Source: Verrucomicrobiales bacterium (lineage in GTDB: Bacteria; Verrucomicrobiota; Verrucomicrobiia; Limisphaerales; UBA11320). From it: a stretch of 64,000 nucleotides of DNA. The DNA is taken from the NCBI GenBank assembly GCA_016793885.1, contig JAEUHE010000042.1, positions 186,001 through 250,000 on the forward strand. Reading direction: 5' to 3'. Positions 41,360 through 50,018 of this stretch are shown piece after piece. The notes beneath the pieces are model-generated. The model was not told the DNA's origin. It did no database searches and saw nothing but the letters and a program-made list of their open reading frames with translations. Position numbers and translations under genes: made by a program. Position 1 is the first letter of the stretch; every line of letters starts with the position of its first letter.

Positions 41360-41579
41360 AGCGATTCAGCATCGGCCGCACACTCTAATCATAGCTGCTT
41401 TTAGGCCACCTGGCTAGACCCGCTAACGGGTGAATGTCACCGTAAATCGAGGCCGCCCCAGAAAAGTGTAGAAACAAGCCCTTGCGTTCAAAATGTTTAG
41501 ATGTAGTGTCCGAATTATGTCATTAAATGTCCAAAAAGTGACTGTGTAGCCATTTTGGCGAGTTTTCCTGGTGACTCCT

Positions 41580-44219
41580 ATGAACCTATCCCGACTACCG
41601 GCACTCCGGGTGCCGTTGCTTCTATTTTTTGCCTCCGGGGCGGCCGCGTTGATCTATGAAACCGTCTGGGTGCGCGAGTTCGGACGATCTCTGGGGAACA
41701 CCTCGATGTCGGTCGCATTGGTGACCGGCTTGTTCGTTGGAGGGTTAGGGTTGGGCAGTTTTTTTGCCGGGAGGGCTGGGGTCCTTCGTCGGGCGGCCGA
41801 TGCCGGCCGATTGTGGAGACTTTATGCGGCCTGCGAGGGGCTGATTGGGCTCGTTGCCTTGGCAACCTGGGTGGCACAGAAATCCTTGCTGGCGGCCTTG
41901 CCTGCTCGCACCGCGTCCTACGAGCTTGATGACTCGGGGCTGTGGGTGCTGACCCAAGGATCGGTTCTCGCACAGCTCGGCGTGCTAGCGGTTCTGATCT
42001 TGCCCGCCACGTTGCTGATGGGGGCAACGTTTCCCCTGCTGCTCCGGATCACCCGGGAGAGCTATGTTTCCAACGGTTGGGGGTTTGGGCTTCTATATGG
42101 CAGCAACACCGCGGGCGCCATGGCGGGCTGTTTATTGGTCGACCTGTGGCTCGTTCCACAGCTGGGAAGCCGCGGCACGCAGTTGTGCGCGATTGCTGTG
42201 AATATTCTCGTTGGGTTGGTTGCTTGGGGGTTCGCGCGGTACGCCACCGTGCCTTTGTCTGGGGCGGAGGCGGACGGCTCAGGCACCCCGTTGCGGGTGC
42301 TGGCTCGCCGGCATCAGCCTGAATTCCTGTTTGTGTGCGTCGTGGTGGCCATTTCAGGATTTGTGGCGATGGGCCTTCAGGTGGTCTGGGCACGGTTCCT
42401 GACCACGGCCTTGGGCGGAACTCGTGGGGTGTTTTCGATCCTGTTGGGGGTCATCCTGGGAGGAATGTGGCTGGGATCGATAGCGGGTGGGTGGTCGGTG
42501 CGTCGGTGGCGGATGCCCTGGGTGTTCTGTGGGCTCGGCTCGGTCCTCCTCGTCGCCAGCTCCATGATGGGACTGATTTGGTTCGATCGCGCCCTGTTGG
42601 CTACGGGCTCTTTCGCCGGTTTGCACCAGACTCTCGAGCGGTATCACTTGAGCTGGTTGACCGATGTTCTCTTCGTTCTCAGGACGGTTTTGCCCGTGGC
42701 TGGCGTCGCCTCGTTTTGGGCCGGATTTACGGTGCCGCCTGCTATCGAGATTTTGAACTTCGATCGAGCCCATGAAAACCGCCTGACGAGCATCGCCTAC
42801 ATGGTCAATTGTTTGGGCGCCCTGCTCGGAGCGGTGGGCGTGGGGTTCTTCCTCCTTCCAGAGTTCGGAATGCAGGCAACCGTGCTCTTGCTTGCATTCC
42901 CGCTCTTGGGAGTTGCCTTGAGTCTGATCGTCATGGGTAGGCGAGGTTGGGCGGGTTCCCGTCCCGCCGGTCTGGCGGCAGCGGCGGCCCTGGTGTTGTT
43001 GCTTGGCTATTGGAACAGCCTTTCGCCTCAATACTTGCTTCTCAAAGTGTTCGATCCTCCGCGGCGGAAGGAAGGGTTTTTGGCGCTGTCGGAAGACCTG
43101 AACGAGTCCATCGCCGTTGATGAGCATCCCATCACCAAGGATCGCTATCTGCTGACCAACGGGCATTCCATGTCGGGCACTGCGCTGGGATCGGTGCGCT
43201 ACATGAGGATGTTCAGCCATCTGCCGCTGCTTCAGATGGCCGAGCCGAAGGATGCACTGGTGATTTGTTTTGGCGTCGGCAACACACTGCATGCCGCTTC
43301 GCTCTACCCGTCGGTGAGTCGGTTGGAGGTGGTGGACCTGTCGCGGCACGTGATCGAACACGCCGGTTACTTCGCCGAGTGGAATCGCCAAGTGCTCAGA
43401 GATCCGCGCGTGAGGGTCTTTATCAACGATGGACGTCATCACCTTCAAATGCAGCCGCCGGGCTCGTACGACCTGGTAACCTTGGAGCCTCCCCCTCTGG
43501 CACATTCGGGAGTCGCTAGCCTTTACACTCGCGAGTTCTATGACCTGGTGCGCTCCCGGCTCAAGTCGGGCGGTTTTCTCACCACCTGGTTGCCGGCGCT
43601 GCAGCTGACGGAGCCCGCGCTCCGCTCCGCCATTGGCGCTTTTGTTGAGGTGTTTCCCAACGCCGTCCTGCTCCATGGGCATGCCGATAACTTCATTTTG
43701 ATGGGCCGTGCGGCGGAAACGAACACCGTGGAGTTGTCCCAGCTTGAGAATGCCTTGTCGCGGCATCCCGAGGTGCGGGCGGATTTGGATGAGGTGTTTC
43801 TGGGGACCATGACTGAGCTGCTTGGCACTTTCGTGGCCTCCCCGGAGCGCCTGTCTGCCTTTAGTCGTGGCGCCGCCCCGCTCACGGACGACCAGCCGAA
43901 CATGGACTATGGCTACATTGCCTTCCTTCGCTCGAAAATCCCCTCAGGAATGATCGGTGTCAGAGAGATCGGCGATTGGTACAAAGGCCGTGATCTAGAT
44001 CCTAGCCGAGAGTCCTACCTGGTGCCAGGGCTGCCCACTTACCTGGCCATTATGGAGAACTATTATTCGACCATCCCGCCCATCGACTATTTGAAGCCCC
44101 GCGTGCCGCATCGGCTGACCCTGGACCTCATGTCACCAGAGGTGAGCCGGGTGATTGAACGCAGCCCCTATCTTCAAGGAGTGCTCCGCGCGCAGCTGCA
44201 GGAGCTGGGTGCCAGGTAG
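41580..44219 (+). CDS. Membrane protein fused to a spermidine-synthase-like domain
   Basis: About 879 residues. The first 470 form a polytopic membrane region (about 12 hydrophobic segments, starting LLLFFASGAAALIYETVWVREFGRSLGNT), a form seen in many bacterial spermidine-synthase fusions. Residues about 560-715 have the Rossmann methyltransferase-like polyamine-synthase core: DALVICFGVGNTLHAASLYP (Gly-rich loop) and VEVVDLSRHVIEHAGYF-like cofactor-binding segment. The expected catalytic Asp region is replaced by VTLEPPPLAHSG. A 150-residue tail follows. The ATG at 41580 is preferred to the GTG at 41571. Whether it makes polyamines is doubtful; a membrane-linked function is more likely. Confidence 0.88.
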   Translation: MNLSRLPALRVPLLLFFASGAAALIYETVWVREFGRSLGNTSMSVALVTGLFVGGLGLGSFFAGRAGVLRRAADAGRLWRLYAACEGLIGLVALATWVAQKSLLAALPARTASYELDDSGLWVLTQGSVLAQLGVLAVLILPATLLMGATFPLLLRITRESYVSNGWGFGLLYGSNTAGAMAGCLLVDLWLVPQLGSRGTQLCAIAVNILVGLVAWGFARYATVPLSGAEADGSGTPLRVLARRHQPEFLFVCVVVAISGFVAMGLQVVWARFLTTALGGTRGVFSILLGVILGGMWLGSIAGGWSVRRWRMPWVFCGLGSVLLVASSMMGLIWFDRALLATGSFAGLHQTLERYHLSWLTDVLFVLRTVLPVAGVASFWAGFTVPPAIEILNFDRAHENRLTSIAYMVNCLGALLGAVGVGFFLLPEFGMQATVLLLAFPLLGVALSLIVMGRRGWAGSRPAGLAAAAALVLLLGYWNSLSPQYLLLKVFDPPRRKEGFLALSEDLNESIAVDEHPITKDRYLLTNGHSMSGTALGSVRYMRMFSHLPLLQMAEPKDALVICFGVGNTLHAASLYPSVSRLEVVDLSRHVIEHAGYFAEWNRQVLRDPRVRVFINDGRHHLQMQPPGSYDLVTLEPPPLAHSGVASLYTREFYDLVRSRLKSGGFLTTWLPALQLTEPALRSAIGAFVEVFPNAVLLHGHADNFILMGRAAETNTVELSQLENALSRHPEVRADLDEVFLGTMTELLGTFVASPERLSAFSRGAAPLTDDQPNMDYGYIAFLRSKIPSGMIGVREIGDWYKGRDLDPSRESYLVPGLPTYLAIMENYYSTIPPIDYLKPRVPHRLTLDLMSPEVSRVIERSPYLQGVLRAQLQELGAR

Positions 44220-44300
44220 TACTAACAATACCCTAAATAATTCCTGGATCTTCAGCGTCGATCCTGTCGTTCATGACTGGAAACCAAATGCTTTGATGAC

Positions 44301-44981
44301 ATGGCATTGCTGACGATTTCACAACTGGTGAAGGACTTTCTGGCCCCCGACGGCTCGACCAATCGGGTGGTGCAGGTCGCCCATTTCCAGCTGGAGGAGC
44401 GGGCTCAGTTGGCGTTGAGGGGGGAAAGCGGCTCGGGGAAGACCACCTTCCTAAACCTCATCGCCGGGATTCTCAAGCCGGACCAAGGGCGTATTGTCGT
44501 GGCCGATGAAGAGATGTCGGCCCTCAGCGAGCCGGGACGCGACCGTCTCCGCGCACGCTCCATTGGTTATATTTTTCAGACCTTTAACCTGCTCCAGAGC
44601 CATACCGCCTTGGAAAACGTCCTGCTCGGGATGTCTTTTGGGGTAGGGGAGGATCCGGTGAAAGCCGAGGGACTTCTGAAACGCGTGGGCCTGGGGGATC
44701 GACTCCACTACCGCCCGCGCCAGCTCTCCACGGGACAGCAACAGCGGGTGGCGGTGGCGCGCGCCTTGGCCGGGCAGCCTAAGCTGGTCCTCGCCGATGA
44801 GCCCACCGGGAACCTGGACAGCACCCGATCCAGGGAGGCCTTGGTGTTGATTCGTGAAGTCTGTCGCGAGAACGGGGCGGCGTTGCTGCTGGTAAGTCAT
44901 GATCCCGGCGTGCTGGGGCAGTTTGACCAGGTCCAGGACTTCCATGCCCTGAACGCCGCCATGAAAGGGGCTGGACAATGA
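44301..44981 (+). CDS. ABC transporter ATP-binding protein (LolD/MacB type)
   Basis: This 226-residue ATPase has Walker [11 protein letters not shown] (about residues 37-46), Q-loop FQTFNLLQ, signature [15 protein letters not shown], Walker [13 protein letters not shown], and H-loop LLVSHDPG. This is the LolD/MacB/FtsE branch that energises periplasmic or outer-membrane-directed processes rather than classic import. The stop overlaps the following permease start as ATGA, so the two are coupled. Confidence 0.95.
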
Positions 44982-46183
44982 CCATTCTTCGAATTGTTCT
45001 CAAGAGCCTCCGGCAGCATCTGCTCTCCACGTCCATCACGGCCTGTTCGATCGCCCTGGCGACCGGCCTGTGGATCTCCGTTTGGGTGGTCAAGGATCAG
45101 TCTCAATCCACGTTTACCGGAGTCACTGCCGGGTTCCATGGGGTGCTGGGAGCACGAGGATCTTCGCTTCAGCTGGTGCTCAACTCCATCTTCCACCTGG
45201 AAGCCTCGCCGGGAAATCTCCCCTGGAGCGACTATGAGGACCTGCGTAAGGATGAGCGGGTGCAACTCGCCATTCCGCTGGCGGTGGGCGACAATTACCA
45301 CGGCTATCGACTGGTCGGCACCACCTCGGAGCTGTTCGAGAAGGGTGAGTATCGAGAAGGAAAGCCTTATCGGGTTCAACCTGGAGGACGATTCTTCGAC
45401 AGCCAGCGGCGGGAAGCGGTGGTGGGTAGCTTCGTGGCCCAGCAGCTGAGGCTCAAGGTGGGGGACACGTTTCATCCCTACCACGGCCTCATTTTTAACG
45501 AAAACGATCGGCATGCGGAGACCTATGTGGTGGTGGGCTTGCTCGAGCCTTCCAACACACCTGCCGATCGGGTGATCTGGATCCCCTTGGCCGGGATTCA
45601 AATGATGAGCGGTCACGATGCCAAGTCGGCCACTGAGATCAGCGCCGTGCTCGTGAGGCTCAAAACACCCATGGCGGGGAAGCAGCTTGAGATGCTCTAC
45701 AACAAGCAGGGGAACCGGCTGACGTTCGCCTGGCCGATCAGCACCATACTGGTTCAGCTGTTCGACAAGATTGCCTGGTTTGAGCGAGTGCTTGCCCTGG
45801 TCTCCTACCTGGTGGCATTGGTCGCGGCCGCCTCCGTTCTGGCCAGCATCTACAACTCGATGAACGAGCGTCGTCGGGAGATCGCGATTTTGCGCGCCTT
45901 GGGGGCGCGGCGCTTCACCGTGTTCGCCATCATCATTCTGGAGGCGACGGCGATCGCCGCAATCGGCATCCTGCTAGGGGCGGTGGTCTATGCCGTGCTC
46001 ATGTCAGGAGTGGCCAACCTCATTCGCGCGCAGACGGGCGTCGTTCTCAACCCATTTGAGCCGGCCGCGGTCATGTTGTGGGCGCCGCTGGCGATGTTGG
46101 GACTTGGGGCGTTGGCTGGAGTAGTGCCGGCGTTTAAGGCCTACCGCACCGATGTCGCTCAGAACCTGACGCCTGCCTCATGA
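44978..46183 (+). CDS. FtsX/MacB-type ABC permease
   Basis: The 401-residue permease has the four-helix MacB/LolC topology: a membrane helix at about 17-38, a large periplasmic domain (about 40-270), and three C-terminal helices within the FtsX domain (WFERVLALVSYLVALVAAASVL, FTVFAIIILEATAIAAIGILLGAVV, AVMLWAPLAMLGLGALAGVVP). The coupling segment MNERRREIAILRALGARR is typical. A partner at 44301 and a His-rich lipoprotein downstream suggest a lipoprotein-handling or mechanotransmission complex. Confidence 0.93.
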   Translation: MTILRIVLKSLRQHLLSTSITACSIALATGLWISVWVVKDQSQSTFTGVTAGFHGVLGARGSSLQLVLNSIFHLEASPGNLPWSDYEDLRKDERVQLAIPLAVGDNYHGYRLVGTTSELFEKGEYREGKPYRVQPGGRFFDSQRREAVVGSFVAQQLRLKVGDTFHPYHGLIFNENDRHAETYVVVGLLEPSNTPADRVIWIPLAGIQMMSGHDAKSATEISAVLVRLKTPMAGKQLEMLYNKQGNRLTFAWPISTILVQLFDKIAWFERVLALVSYLVALVAAASVLASIYNSMNERRREIAILRALGARRFTVFAIIILEATAIAAIGILLGAVVYAVLMSGVANLIRAQTGVVLNPFEPAAVMLWAPLAMLGLGALAGVVPAFKAYRTDVAQNLTPAS

Positions 46184-46235
46184 TCGTCGCCTCTGGACTC
46201 ACGGCTCCGGTTCCTCTACGTTCCTCGAACTCTCT

Positions 46236-46712
46236 ATGAAAATGCTCGCTCTCTTACTGGTAGGAATCTCAGCTTGGTTTCTGGCTGGTTGCGGTGACTC
46301 CCACTCTTCACACGATCACTCGAGTCATGGGGCTGGATCGGAGCATAGCCACGCGGCACCTCATGGCGGAACGTTGGTGGAACTCGGCCAGCACGCCTTT
46401 AACGTGGAGTTTGTGCGGGATCTCGAGGCGGGGAAGCTGATCGCTTACATTCTCGATGCGCACGCGGAATCCTACCTCCGGTTGCCGATACCCAGCTTTG
46501 AGGTGACCCTGATGAAGCCGGGCCAGCCTGAAACGGTAAAGCTTGCCGCGGTCGAGAATTCCAAGACCGGCGAGAAGGTGGGCGATACCTCGCAGTTCGA
46601 GGTGCAGGCGGATTGGCTCAAAGTAGCCTCCCCCTTGGCCGGGGAGATCAAAGAGTTGGATCTTCGCGGTTCCAAGTTCTCAGGGGGCAAGTTCCAGCTT
46701 CCGGGCAAATAA
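46236..46712 (+). CDS. His-rich lipoprotein
   Basis: The 158-residue protein has a lipobox (WFLAGC) after a signal peptide. The mature N-terminus is His-rich (GDSHSSHDHSSHGAGSEHSH, then APHGGTLVELG), a likely metal-binding stretch. The remaining 110 residues have no recognised fold; the HGGxLVELG motif recurs on PVC proteins near metal transporters. The gene starts 52 bp after the permease, with which it probably acts. The outer- or inner-membrane destination cannot be told. Confidence 0.82.
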   Translation: MKMLALLLVGISAWFLAGCGDSHSSHDHSSHGAGSEHSHAAPHGGTLVELGQHAFNVEFVRDLEAGKLIAYILDAHAESYLRLPIPSFEVTLMKPGQPETVKLAAVENSKTGEKVGDTSQFEVQADWLKVASPLAGEIKELDLRGSKFSGGKFQLPGK

Positions 46713-46796
46713 CCCCTGGCCGGGATGCGTGCCATCCAGCTGCGCTTAACAAACATGGCTTTCGACCTGGACCGTTAGCAATTGCGCGACTCGTGG

Positions 46797-49700
46797 ATGT
46801 CCTTACTGCTCCCAGCTTTGCGGCCCGTCATACCCGACCATCGGCTGATCACTCTCATCGGCGGTGGCAGCTACGGCCAAATCTGGCTGGCCCAGAATGT
46901 GGCGGGCGCTTATCGGGCGATCAAGGTGGTTTCACGGTCGAACTTCCACTCGGACCGCCCCTACGAGCGGGAGTTTGAGGGCCTTCAACGCTTTGAGCCC
47001 ATCTCTCGTTCTCACGAGGGCTTTCTTCAAATTCTGCATATCGGTCGCAACGACTCCGAGGGTTACTTCTACTATGTCATGGAGCTGGGGGACAGCCAGG
47101 ACGAGGCCTGGCAACAGGACCCCTCGAAGTATTCTCCGCGCACTCTGTCGAGTGAGTTGGTTCAGCATCTCCGGTTGCCCCTGGATCGCTGTCTCGAGGT
47201 GGGGCTCGAGTTGAGCGCCGCTCTGGCTCGACTTCATCTGCAAGGGCTGGTGCATCGAGACCTCAAACCGGCGAACATTGTCTTCGTGAATCGACGTCCC
47301 AAGCTGGCGGACATCGGATTGGTGACGGAGGCGGGCAACTCGGTGACCTTTGTTGGCACGGAAGGATACGTTCCCCGGGAAGGGCCGGGCGCGCCCAACG
47401 CCGACATCTATGCGCTAGGCAAGATTCTCTATGAGATGGCAACCGGCTTCGATTGTTCTCGTTTCCCCGATCTGCCGGAGGAACCTCCAACTCCCGTGGG
47501 GAGTCTGACTTTTGCCGAATGGAATGAAGTCGTCTGCAAGTGTTGTGACGAAGATCCCTGGCGTCGCTACCAACAGGCGGAGGACCTCCGATTCCACCTG
47601 TCTCTGCTTAAGGCGGGAAGCTCGCTTCGACGACTTCTGAGACTGGAACGCACGCTGCAGCGCGTTCGGCGTCTCGCCCTCCCCGGCCTCTTGATGCTTG
47701 TCGCGGCGGCGGCGGTGGGCTTTTCCGTCTGGCGTTCGCGCCAGGATGCTGCGGTCATTTCGCGGCGGGAGTTCGAGCTGTCCCAGAGGAAGGTGGGATC
47801 GTTCGTCGCTACCGGTGGCCAAGCCATGCAGAGTGGAGACTTTTCTGGCGCGCTGCCGTGGTTCACCGCTGCACTGGCGCTGTTGGACAACGATCCAATG
47901 GCGTTAGAAACCCATCGGACCCGCATGGCCGCGGTCTTGGACCGATCTCCTCAGCTGAAGCAGCTTTGGTTCTCCGAGCACGAAGCGCGTTTCGGCCAGT
48001 TCACGACCAATGGCGAATCGGCTCTGGTGCAGACGCTGAGCGGTCGGTTTCAGCTCCGCCGGGTGTCGGACGGCGCCAGCCTTTCGCCTGAGTTTGGTAG
48101 CCTGAAAGGCGAGGAGCTTGCCTGCCTTTCCGCCGATGCCACGCTGGCGCTGACAAGCTCGCGCCGGGAGATGTTAATTCGTCTCTGGGATCTGCGCGGC
48201 GATAAGCCGGTGGGCCAGGTTCAGTTTCACAGCTGGGTCACTGCCGCGAGGCTTAGCCCGAATGCCGATCGGGTCGTGGTGGGGCTCTATGATGGCAGCG
48301 TGGTGATTCATCACCTGGCGACTCAGCGGCAGGTGGTGCTGCGCGCCCACAGCAAGCGCGTCTTGCATGTGACGTTCGATCGACACGGAGACCGACTGCT
48401 CACCTGCGGTGAGGACGGACAAGCCTGTATCTGGCACGGGGTCACCGGGGAGCGGATTTCGCGCTTTCTGGATCACGCCAACTGGGTTACCTGGGGTGCC
48501 TTCAGCCCTGACGGATCCAGAGTGGTTACGGCCGGTTTCGATCGAACCCTTCGAGTTTGGAACCCGGTCGACGGCGCTCCTTTGCTCCCAGCGCCCTTCG
48601 ACCTCGCCTCGGTGGCTCGGAGTGTGGAGTTCACCGCCGATGGGCGGAACCTGGTGATCTCTGATTTCGAATTCCGAGTGCTCGTCCTGGATGCTCTGGA
48701 CGGACAGCGTGCCGGTCCGGTGTTTCACCACGGCGAGCATGTGGTTTTTGCTGATGCTAGCCCATCGGGAGATCGGCTCCTGTCGGTCTCACAGGACGGA
48801 ACCACCCGCATCTGGCAGATTCCGAAGAAGGTTCCGGTGAGCTCTTGGGCCGTGCTGGATTTTCAGCCCATGGCACAGCGGGGTATCGTCCTGACCAATG
48901 GCCGCTTCGCCGAACTCGAGCTTCCGCTCGGAGCGATCCGCGCCCAGCGGAACGAAATGGCGGAAGATCGTGCGCCTGTAGCTCGCTTTCTCGCGGATGG
49001 ACAGTCGTGTGCCACCTTGTCGGAGGTCGTGACTGCGGACGCGGACCCTGAACCCATGCGTGTGCTGAAACGAATCGATTTTGCCGGCGAAGCTAGCGAT
49101 TCGATCGCGCTGCGTCTGCCCGCCGCTTTCGATCGATTCCTTGGGCTAGGGACCCAGCGCTCCATTGCGGTGTGGTCCACGAATGTGCTGACGCGGTATG
49201 AGCTGGGAGCAGCGCGCCAGAGTTGGCAGGTAGAGTTCGGCGGATCGCGGCTGCATCAGGTTTTCCCGGACTCGGCGGGCGAGCGAATCGCTGTGGCGTT
49301 GACGGGGCGGGCGGGCCATTCATTGCAGCTGCTGGATTCCTCAGATGGACGATCGATTTGGGGCGGTCCGGTCCAGGTCAAGGGTGAGATCAAGGCCGTC
49401 GCATTTTCTCAGGATGGGAAATGGCTGGCGGTGGCTTGCAGCAGCAGTCCGGCACGGAGCGAAGCCGCATTCGTTTTCGAGTGCCGTTCCGGACGCCTCG
49501 TCGGCGAACCGTTCTTTCACCGCGATGGGGTCCTCTCGGTGGCATTCAGTCCGAGCGGGAAAGTCTTGGTGACCTGCGGCGAAGACAAGACCACACTGAT
49601 CCGCAGCTTGGAGACCGGACAGCAGCTGGTGCGCCCTCTGCTGCATCAGGAACAAGTGCTGCGCGCGGTGTTCAGTTGGGATGGCCGCTGGCTGGCGACT

Positions 49701-50018
49701 TTATGCAAGAATCAAGTCCTCCAGGTCTGGGATGTTGGAACCGGGGACCCAATCACTCCTCCCATCGATCTTCCCGGACGATGCAACCAGGTCGCTTTTC
49801 ATCCCCAGGCGCAAGGAGTTTGGGCGTGGGCTCCTTCGGACGGCCAGCTCATGGGTGAGGTCTGCTGGGTGCCGCTTCGGCGAGAAACACGGAGCCTGGA
49901 TGAACTCGCCGCCATTGCTCGGGTCTTGTCCGCCCAGTATTATCACTACAGCGGGGGACTGTTGCCCTCGCCTCGCAAAGTGCTGGATGAAAGCTGGTCC
50001 AAGGTGCAAAGCCCTTGA
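46797..50018 (+). CDS. Ser/Thr protein kinase with C-terminal WD40 propeller
   Basis: About 1073 residues. The kinase domain (about 15-275) has a Gly-rich loop (IGGGSYGQIWLAQN), ATP-binding Lys in RAIKVV, catalytic loop VHRDLKPANIVF and metal motif ADIGLV in place of DFG. A single membrane helix (GLLMLVAAAAVGFSVW, about 300) separates it from a WD40-like domain (about 400-1040) in which blades such as VLHVTFDRHGDRLLTCGEDGQACIW and VTWGAFSPDGSRVVTAGFDRTLRVW are clear. Kinase in the cytoplasm and propeller outside is the expected topology. The start at 46797 replaces a TTG at 46782. A terminator follows at 50051. Confidence 0.92.
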   Translation: MSLLLPALRPVIPDHRLITLIGGGSYGQIWLAQNVAGAYRAIKVVSRSNFHSDRPYEREFEGLQRFEPISRSHEGFLQILHIGRNDSEGYFYYVMELGDSQDEAWQQDPSKYSPRTLSSELVQHLRLPLDRCLEVGLELSAALARLHLQGLVHRDLKPANIVFVNRRPKLADIGLVTEAGNSVTFVGTEGYVPREGPGAPNADIYALGKILYEMATGFDCSRFPDLPEEPPTPVGSLTFAEWNEVVCKCCDEDPWRRYQQAEDLRFHLSLLKAGSSLRRLLRLERTLQRVRRLALPGLLMLVAAAAVGFSVWRSRQDAAVISRREFELSQRKVGSFVATGGQAMQSGDFSGALPWFTAALALLDNDPMALETHRTRMAAVLDRSPQLKQLWFSEHEARFGQFTTNGESALVQTLSGRFQLRRVSDGASLSPEFGSLKGEELACLSADATLALTSSRREMLIRLWDLRGDKPVGQVQFHSWVTAARLSPNADRVVVGLYDGSVVIHHLATQRQVVLRAHSKRVLHVTFDRHGDRLLTCGEDGQACIWHGVTGERISRFLDHANWVTWGAFSPDGSRVVTAGFDRTLRVWNPVDGAPLLPAPFDLASVARSVEFTADGRNLVISDFEFRVLVLDALDGQRAGPVFHHGEHVVFADASPSGDRLLSVSQDGTTRIWQIPKKVPVSSWAVLDFQPMAQRGIVLTNGRFAELELPLGAIRAQRNEMAEDRAPVARFLADGQSCATLSEVVTADADPEPMRVLKRIDFAGEASDSIALRLPAAFDRFLGLGTQRSIAVWSTNVLTRYELGAARQSWQVEFGGSRLHQVFPDSAGERIAVALTGRAGHSLQLLDSSDGRSIWGGPVQVKGEIKAVAFSQDGKWLAVACSSSPARSEAAFVFECRSGRLVGEPFFHRDGVLSVAFSPSGKVLVTCGEDKTTLIRSLETGQQLVRPLLHQEQVLRAVFSWDGRWLATLCKNQVLQVWDVGTGDPITPPIDLPGRCNQVAFHPQAQGVWAWAPSDGQLMGEVCWVPLRRETRSLDELAAIARVLSAQYYHYSGGLLPSPRKVLDESWSKVQSP

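Follow-up and report, generated by a model that had tools for sequence, protein, structure and literature searches.

A Zrg-like ABC transporter unit with an unrelated His-rich lipoprotein as a probable metal-handling system in a Verrucomicrobiales bacterium

What is the function of an ABC transporter of the LolD/FtsX type that is encoded together with a His-rich lipoprotein? Such a three-gene unit lies in a 64,000-nucleotide stretch of a Verrucomicrobiales genome (the window; contig JAEUHE010000042.1, positions 186,001 to 250,000). The original prediction regarded it as a metal-handling unit and a distant functional analogue of the Zrg system of Vibrio. Zrg genes are required for Vibrio growth under zinc limitation (PMC9820375, PMC9817125), whereas the homologous pair of Pseudomonas aeruginosa has been read as an exporter of pyochelin and cobalt (PMC11481552). 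Because homologues are thus interpreted as zinc import in one organism (PMC9820375) and as export in the other (PMC11481552), the direction of transport is disputed.

All three open reading frames lie where they were predicted (Table 1), and sequence motifs and Pfam matches confirm the LolD-type ATPase and the FtsX-type permease. The ATPase carries a Walker A motif (GESGSGKT, residue 41), a signature (LSTGQ, 142), a Walker B motif (LVLADEP, 162) and SHD (199), and the permease matches FtsX (4.4e-16) and MacB_PCD (1.7e-10). The ATPase stop and the permease start overlap by four bases (ATGA at 44978), and 52 bases separate the permease stop from the lipoprotein start. The earlier observation that no Zur-like box is seen upstream was borne out: the gap before the ATPase has no such palindrome, and no motif is common to the 21 orthologous upstream regions (10.4 versus 10.2 for shuffles). 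The flanking genes in the window are not metal genes. On one side is an 882-residue protein (41571-44219) in which a spermidine-synthase domain follows a long membrane part. On the other, a Ser/Thr kinase-WD40 repeat fusion (46782-50018) comes right after the lipoprotein, and nothing ties this kinase to the unit.

Table 1. Features of the ABC transporter-lipoprotein unit in the window
Feature	Position	Strand	Evidence or remark
ATPase, LolD/MacB-type NBD (ZrgC-like), 226 aa	44301..44981	+	ABC_tran 3.3e-32; complete ABC motifs; orthologues always adjoin permease
Permease, 4-TM FtsX/MacB type, large periplasmic domain (ZrgB-like), 401 aa	44978..46183	+	Pfam, tree with ZrgB, AlphaFold2 model
HG(169-170)...H179 motif, permease periplasmic domain, candidate metal ligands	45482..45514	+	Alignment and motif scan
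His-rich lipoprotein, PHGG family, 158 aa, lipobox LAGC-Cys19	46236..46712	+	39 aligned relatives; AlphaFold2 model pLDDT 87
His-rich linker and HxHxAPHGG motif (lipoprotein residues 23-45)	46302..46370	+	H37, H39, G44, G45 at least 90% conserved
Gap upstream of ATPase	44220..44300		Without Zur-like palindrome or conserved motif

The permease was searched against 72,556 plasmid records. Its best annotated matches were ZrgB permeases in clusters of DUF2796, ATPase, permease and DUF3299 genes from a P. aeruginosa strain, a Rhodobacteraceae bacterium and Phaeobacter, the last with a Fur-family regulator as its first gene. A profile of the permease orthologues scored its relatives (ZrgB, Thermus/Deinococcus proteins and others) at 140-249 bits, with ZrgB at 215-225, while the other permeases of the tested set reached at most 71 bits, MacB 35 and LolC/LolE 24. 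In a maximum-likelihood tree that took in three ZrgB proteins and left out the FetB/FetC permeases, the window orthologues, ZrgB and proteins of Deinococcus, Thermus and Rhizobium stood apart from LolC, LolE, MacB and the genomes' own paralogues (support 92/98); the clade of the window permease itself had support of 100/100. Identity is about 30% to ZrgB and 18-21% to LolC/LolE/MacB. The HG pair and His179 are present in 19 of 19 proteins on the ZrgB side of the tree, whereas by alignment and motif scan LolC, LolE, MacB and the own-genome paralogue all lack this HG...H pattern at the aligned position. The AlphaFold2 model (pLDDT 85) is a type VII ABC permease, and its nearest PDB structures are LolE, HrtB, MacB and a Streptococcus transporter (Z 19-24). 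Judged by sequence, the permease belongs to the ZrgB lineage, which is a relationship of homology beyond analogy.

Two plasmid arrangements from this lineage are of separate interest. On a plasmid of Rhizobium sp. NXC24 (L094:5001-5993), the permease has a His-rich loop, HIHGMGHHDDHEDPAEAHDEHEHH, in its periplasmic domain, as if it had a built-in metal-binder. Plasmids of Thermus and Deinococcus (L092, L093) encode an alkaline phosphatase, a small protein, an ATPase and a ZrgB-like permease in a row, possibly for zinc supply to the alkaline phosphatase.

In the 58 genomes of the order, which are related and mostly fragmentary and whose genes were called by simple open-frame and GC-position rules, the permease was found in 31 (E <1e-100), DUF3299 in 30 and the lipoprotein in 24. 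The permease co-occurs with DUF3299 (28/3/2/25 genomes with both, permease only, partner only and neither; Fisher 8e-11) and with the lipoprotein (23/8/1/26; Fisher 2e-8), although these Fisher values are only rough because the genomes are related. At the 31 orthologous permease loci, the lipoprotein adjoins the ABC pair in 13, and for a further 10 the genome encodes it at another place; the remaining eight permease orthologues come from genomes with no detectable lipoprotein. Homologues of the pair are therefore not consistently without the lipoprotein, the pattern named in advance as evidence against the unit. The usual gene order in the relatives is ATPase-permease-lipoprotein-DUF3299. Outside this bacterial order, a further family of the same class and a further lineage of the same phylum have it too, and many genomes keep the arrangement at 50-76% permease identity. 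DUF3299 follows the permease, with no lipoprotein, in four genomes. A profile built from the relatives' DUF3299 proteins finds the PA4066 (ZrgE) structure, 4hsp, with E 1.8e-9, and Vibrio zrgE is annotated as DUF3299 (PMC9817125). By profile match and annotation, then, the usual fourth gene in the relatives is of the ZrgE family. This gene is missing from the operon and window studied here; the one copy of the host genome is on another contig (C260), where it adjoins a gene for an AMP-binding enzyme. At one locus (L175:5627-7712), three tandem DUF3299 genes follow the lipoprotein.

The lipoprotein has fewer clustered His residues than first thought. Nine had been counted in about 30 residues, which is an overcount: seven fall within 21 residues (23, 26, 28, 31, 37, 39 and 43), seven is the maximum for any 30, and the whole protein has nine, the last two at 53 and 76. 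Conservation reaches 90% or more across the 39 relatives for the HxH (37, 39), the GG of PHGG, Glu58 and His76, which shows that the protein is not rich in His by chance; the remainder of the His-rich linker is variable. In ZrgA/PA4063, an N-terminal HxH and a Glu form one zinc site, and the conserved N-terminal HxH and Glu58 of the lipoprotein resemble this make-up, a resemblance only. No Pfam or NCBIfam family covers the lipoprotein, and a PDB sequence search with the protein or its profile gave no match. The plasmid records held no match either, so there is no annotated context outside the phylum. The lipoprotein represents an undescribed family and is a candidate metal-binder.

The AlphaFold2 model of the lipoprotein predicts an Ig-like beta-sandwich. 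Its best structural neighbours are FetP, CrdA, P19 and HftA (Z 7.4-8.8), all periplasmic copper or iron proteins, and the top match is modest (Z 8.8 over 105 residues, rmsd 3.0, 9% identity). Foldseek ranked weak C2-domain matches first, with every match at E >0.001, and found nothing in a viral library. Because Foldseek alone puts C2 domains first, the likeness to FetP, CrdA and P19 is a lead, not an assignment. Two known families were considered and rejected. The lipoprotein is not ZrgA: PF10986 (DUF2796) exceeded its cut-off in none of the 58 genomes of the order, and a comparison with the ZrgA profile gave a probability of 0.7%. Nor is it of the P19 family, as neither it nor its 39 relatives matched PF10634 at E 0.01. 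The lipoprotein would fill the functional place of ZrgA and is not its homologue by any test made. "Analogue" is therefore the right word for this component.

Neighbours were counted by Pfam domain, on the same strand and within 5 kb, at 58 lipoprotein loci. They were DUF3299 (27), CobW-type GTPase (20), ABC permease (20), RND pump (7), metal P-type ATPase (4) and ZnuA (3). There are at most five CobW genes per genome, which puts chance adjacency at roughly 0.2% per locus, but the CobW cases are not independent because most come from one family, the Opitutaceae. COG0523 GTPases have been partly linked to zinc starvation (PMC2770081). Some stray lipoprotein copies adjoin unrelated genes (DNA polymerase III beta clamp, DUF2851, SecA, Glu/Gln tRNA synthetase), so not every copy is in a metal context. 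Metal genes nevertheless lie near the lipoprotein in many other genomes. The host genome also has a separate znuA-znuC-znuB-zur operon, including a Zur-like gene, at C93.

Taken together, the permease's place in the ZrgB lineage, the DUF3299 partner in relatives and the lipoprotein's metal-gene neighbours support the original prediction. We consider that the unit is probably a Zrg-type system for a divalent metal, most likely zinc, in which the lipoprotein takes ZrgA's functional place. The ties to DUF3299 and ZnuA are indicative of zinc starvation.

In MacB/LolCDE-type (type VII) ABC complexes, ATP moves a periplasmic domain and the solute is not passed through the membrane. The ATPase and permease are predicted by fold to form such a complex, and by analogy ATP would drive a mechanical step in the periplasm. 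The membrane-anchored lipoprotein may collect the metal through its HxH/PHGG motif and Ig-like domain. It would then dock on the periplasmic domain of the permease and hand metal to it, or receive metal from it, with the HG...H pair perhaps taking part in the transfer. The DUF3299 (ZrgE) protein, an operon partner in relatives, presumably works with the complex. As an outcome, periplasmic metal might be released or passed to high-affinity importers such as the host's ZnuABC.

The unit could instead export a metallophore or a metal complex in the manner of MacB, with the pair pumping a chelator and the lipoprotein loading it with metal or stripping metal from it. The permease is in the same fold class, and the nearest experimentally studied homologue, PA4064/PA4065, has been so interpreted, with pyochelin as the substrate (PMC11481552). 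However, the immediate neighbours of the unit include no MacA-like adaptor and no TolC, and the NBD is not fused to the permease. Moreover, the genes that accompany the lipoprotein at other loci encode metal ion transporters and CobW, and the neighbours scanned included no metallophore genes. We regard an exporter of this kind as unlikely.

A dedicated LolCDE-like lipoprotein release machine, with the His-rich lipoprotein (and lipoprotein-type DUF3299) as its client, is still harder to reconcile with the data, although the permease model has LolE as one of its closest structures (Z 20-23), the presumed client is encoded next to the ABC pair and several of the DUF3299 proteins carry a lipobox-like Cys. 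LolCDE and MacAB share the type VII ABC fold with the unit, but they belong to another clade. There is a single permease gene here, not a LolC/LolE pair, and the permease scored 58.9 bits against the LolC/LolE models, whose cut-off is 362. The lipoprotein also has no adjoining ABC pair at 38 of its 58 loci, and the Zrg protein that corresponds to it, ZrgA, has been described as a periplasmic protein and not a lipoprotein (PMC9820375). Release of lipoproteins is thus an improbable function for the unit.

The metal could also be copper or cobalt rather than zinc, with the lipoprotein as a CrdA/P19-like copper or iron protein and the unit serving detoxification. The structural neighbours named above bind copper or iron, some lipoprotein copies have RND and P-type ATPase genes as neighbours, and the CobW, RND and P-type ATPase links could be read in this way, against zinc. 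CrdA of Helicobacter pylori in particular is a fold neighbour (Z 8.8); it is small and exported and has a link to RND metal efflux that some lipoprotein relatives share. But the copper motif of CrdA is Met-rich, and the protein is without His (PMC9182242), whereas the lipoprotein alignment lacks such a Met cluster and its conserved candidate ligands are His and Glu. None of 288 genomes from the phylum has the P19 family PF10634, and the links to DUF3299 and ZnuA again favour zinc. We therefore think copper or cobalt a poor prospect. Lastly, that this is an ordinary FtsX/LolD pair of unassigned purpose beside a lipoprotein gene by chance can practically be dismissed: pairs of this type abound (the host genome has 16 permease matches) and the window's other neighbours are unrelated, but the conserved arrangement in many genomes and the strong co-occurrence contradict it.

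How close is the probable Zrg-type unit to systems already described? Zrg of Vibrio and PA4063-PA4066 of P. aeruginosa likewise have a separate LolD-like ATPase and just one MacB-like permease, which is of the 4-TM type and belongs to the same lineage. Zrg also shares the HG...H pair of the permease, a His-rich presumed metal-binder in the operon and, with relatives of the host genome, the DUF3299 partner. In contrast, its metal-binder is ZrgA (DUF2796, ferredoxin-like fold), encoded before the ATPase, whereas the lipoprotein has a predicted Ig-like fold and is encoded after the permease. The unit further differs in that no Zur box was found, its DUF3299 gene is on another contig and permease identity is only about 30%. 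The P19 iron system FetMP-FetABCDEF also encodes an Ig-like periplasmic metal protein with an ABC transporter, but it has two permeases, FetB and FetC, plus the FetM permease and thioredoxins (PMC10783030), compared with one permease gene in the unit, and the lipoprotein has no PF10634 match.

Because an unrelated lipoprotein replaces the usual zinc-binding protein of Zrg, these comparisons suggest an ancient engine with an exchangeable metal carrier. Tentatively, and with somewhat less confidence than in the metal-handling role itself, we propose that the ABC pair and DUF3299 form this engine and that the metal-binder varies: Proteobacteria would use ZrgA, Verrucomicrobiota the unrelated PHGG lipoprotein with its Ig fold and Rhizobium possibly the His-rich loop of its permease. 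If so, ZrgA would not count among the classical substrate-binding proteins, and the system would act mechanically on periplasmic metal carriers. A lineage that keeps the pair and DUF3299 while its metal-binder is swapped for one of another fold tells the essential engine apart from the component that can be exchanged, and the HG...H pair offers two testable residues common across phyla. Since the lipoprotein family is missing from Pfam and NCBIfam and recurs beside CobW, ZnuA and metal pumps, the naming of an undescribed periplasmic metal-binding family would follow.

Several other gene arrangements were seen in the genomes surveyed. One contig (G001:C320, L131) has a row of CobW, PepSY_TM, DUF3299 and ZnuA genes, with a divergent DUF3299, and is a candidate zinc-starvation cluster. 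In the host genome, genes for ribosomal protein S18 and a DksA/TraR zinc-finger protein lie just upstream of znuA-znuC-znuB-zur (L132). DUF1559 prepilin-like genes stand beside clusters of ZnuA, lipoprotein and DUF3299 at two loci (L116, L120). Finally, three loci (L024, L025, L026) come from metagenome bins whose titles, Klebsiella or Akkermansia, were given no weight in the analysis: their genes match this uncultured verrucomicrobial group, and the titles look wrong.
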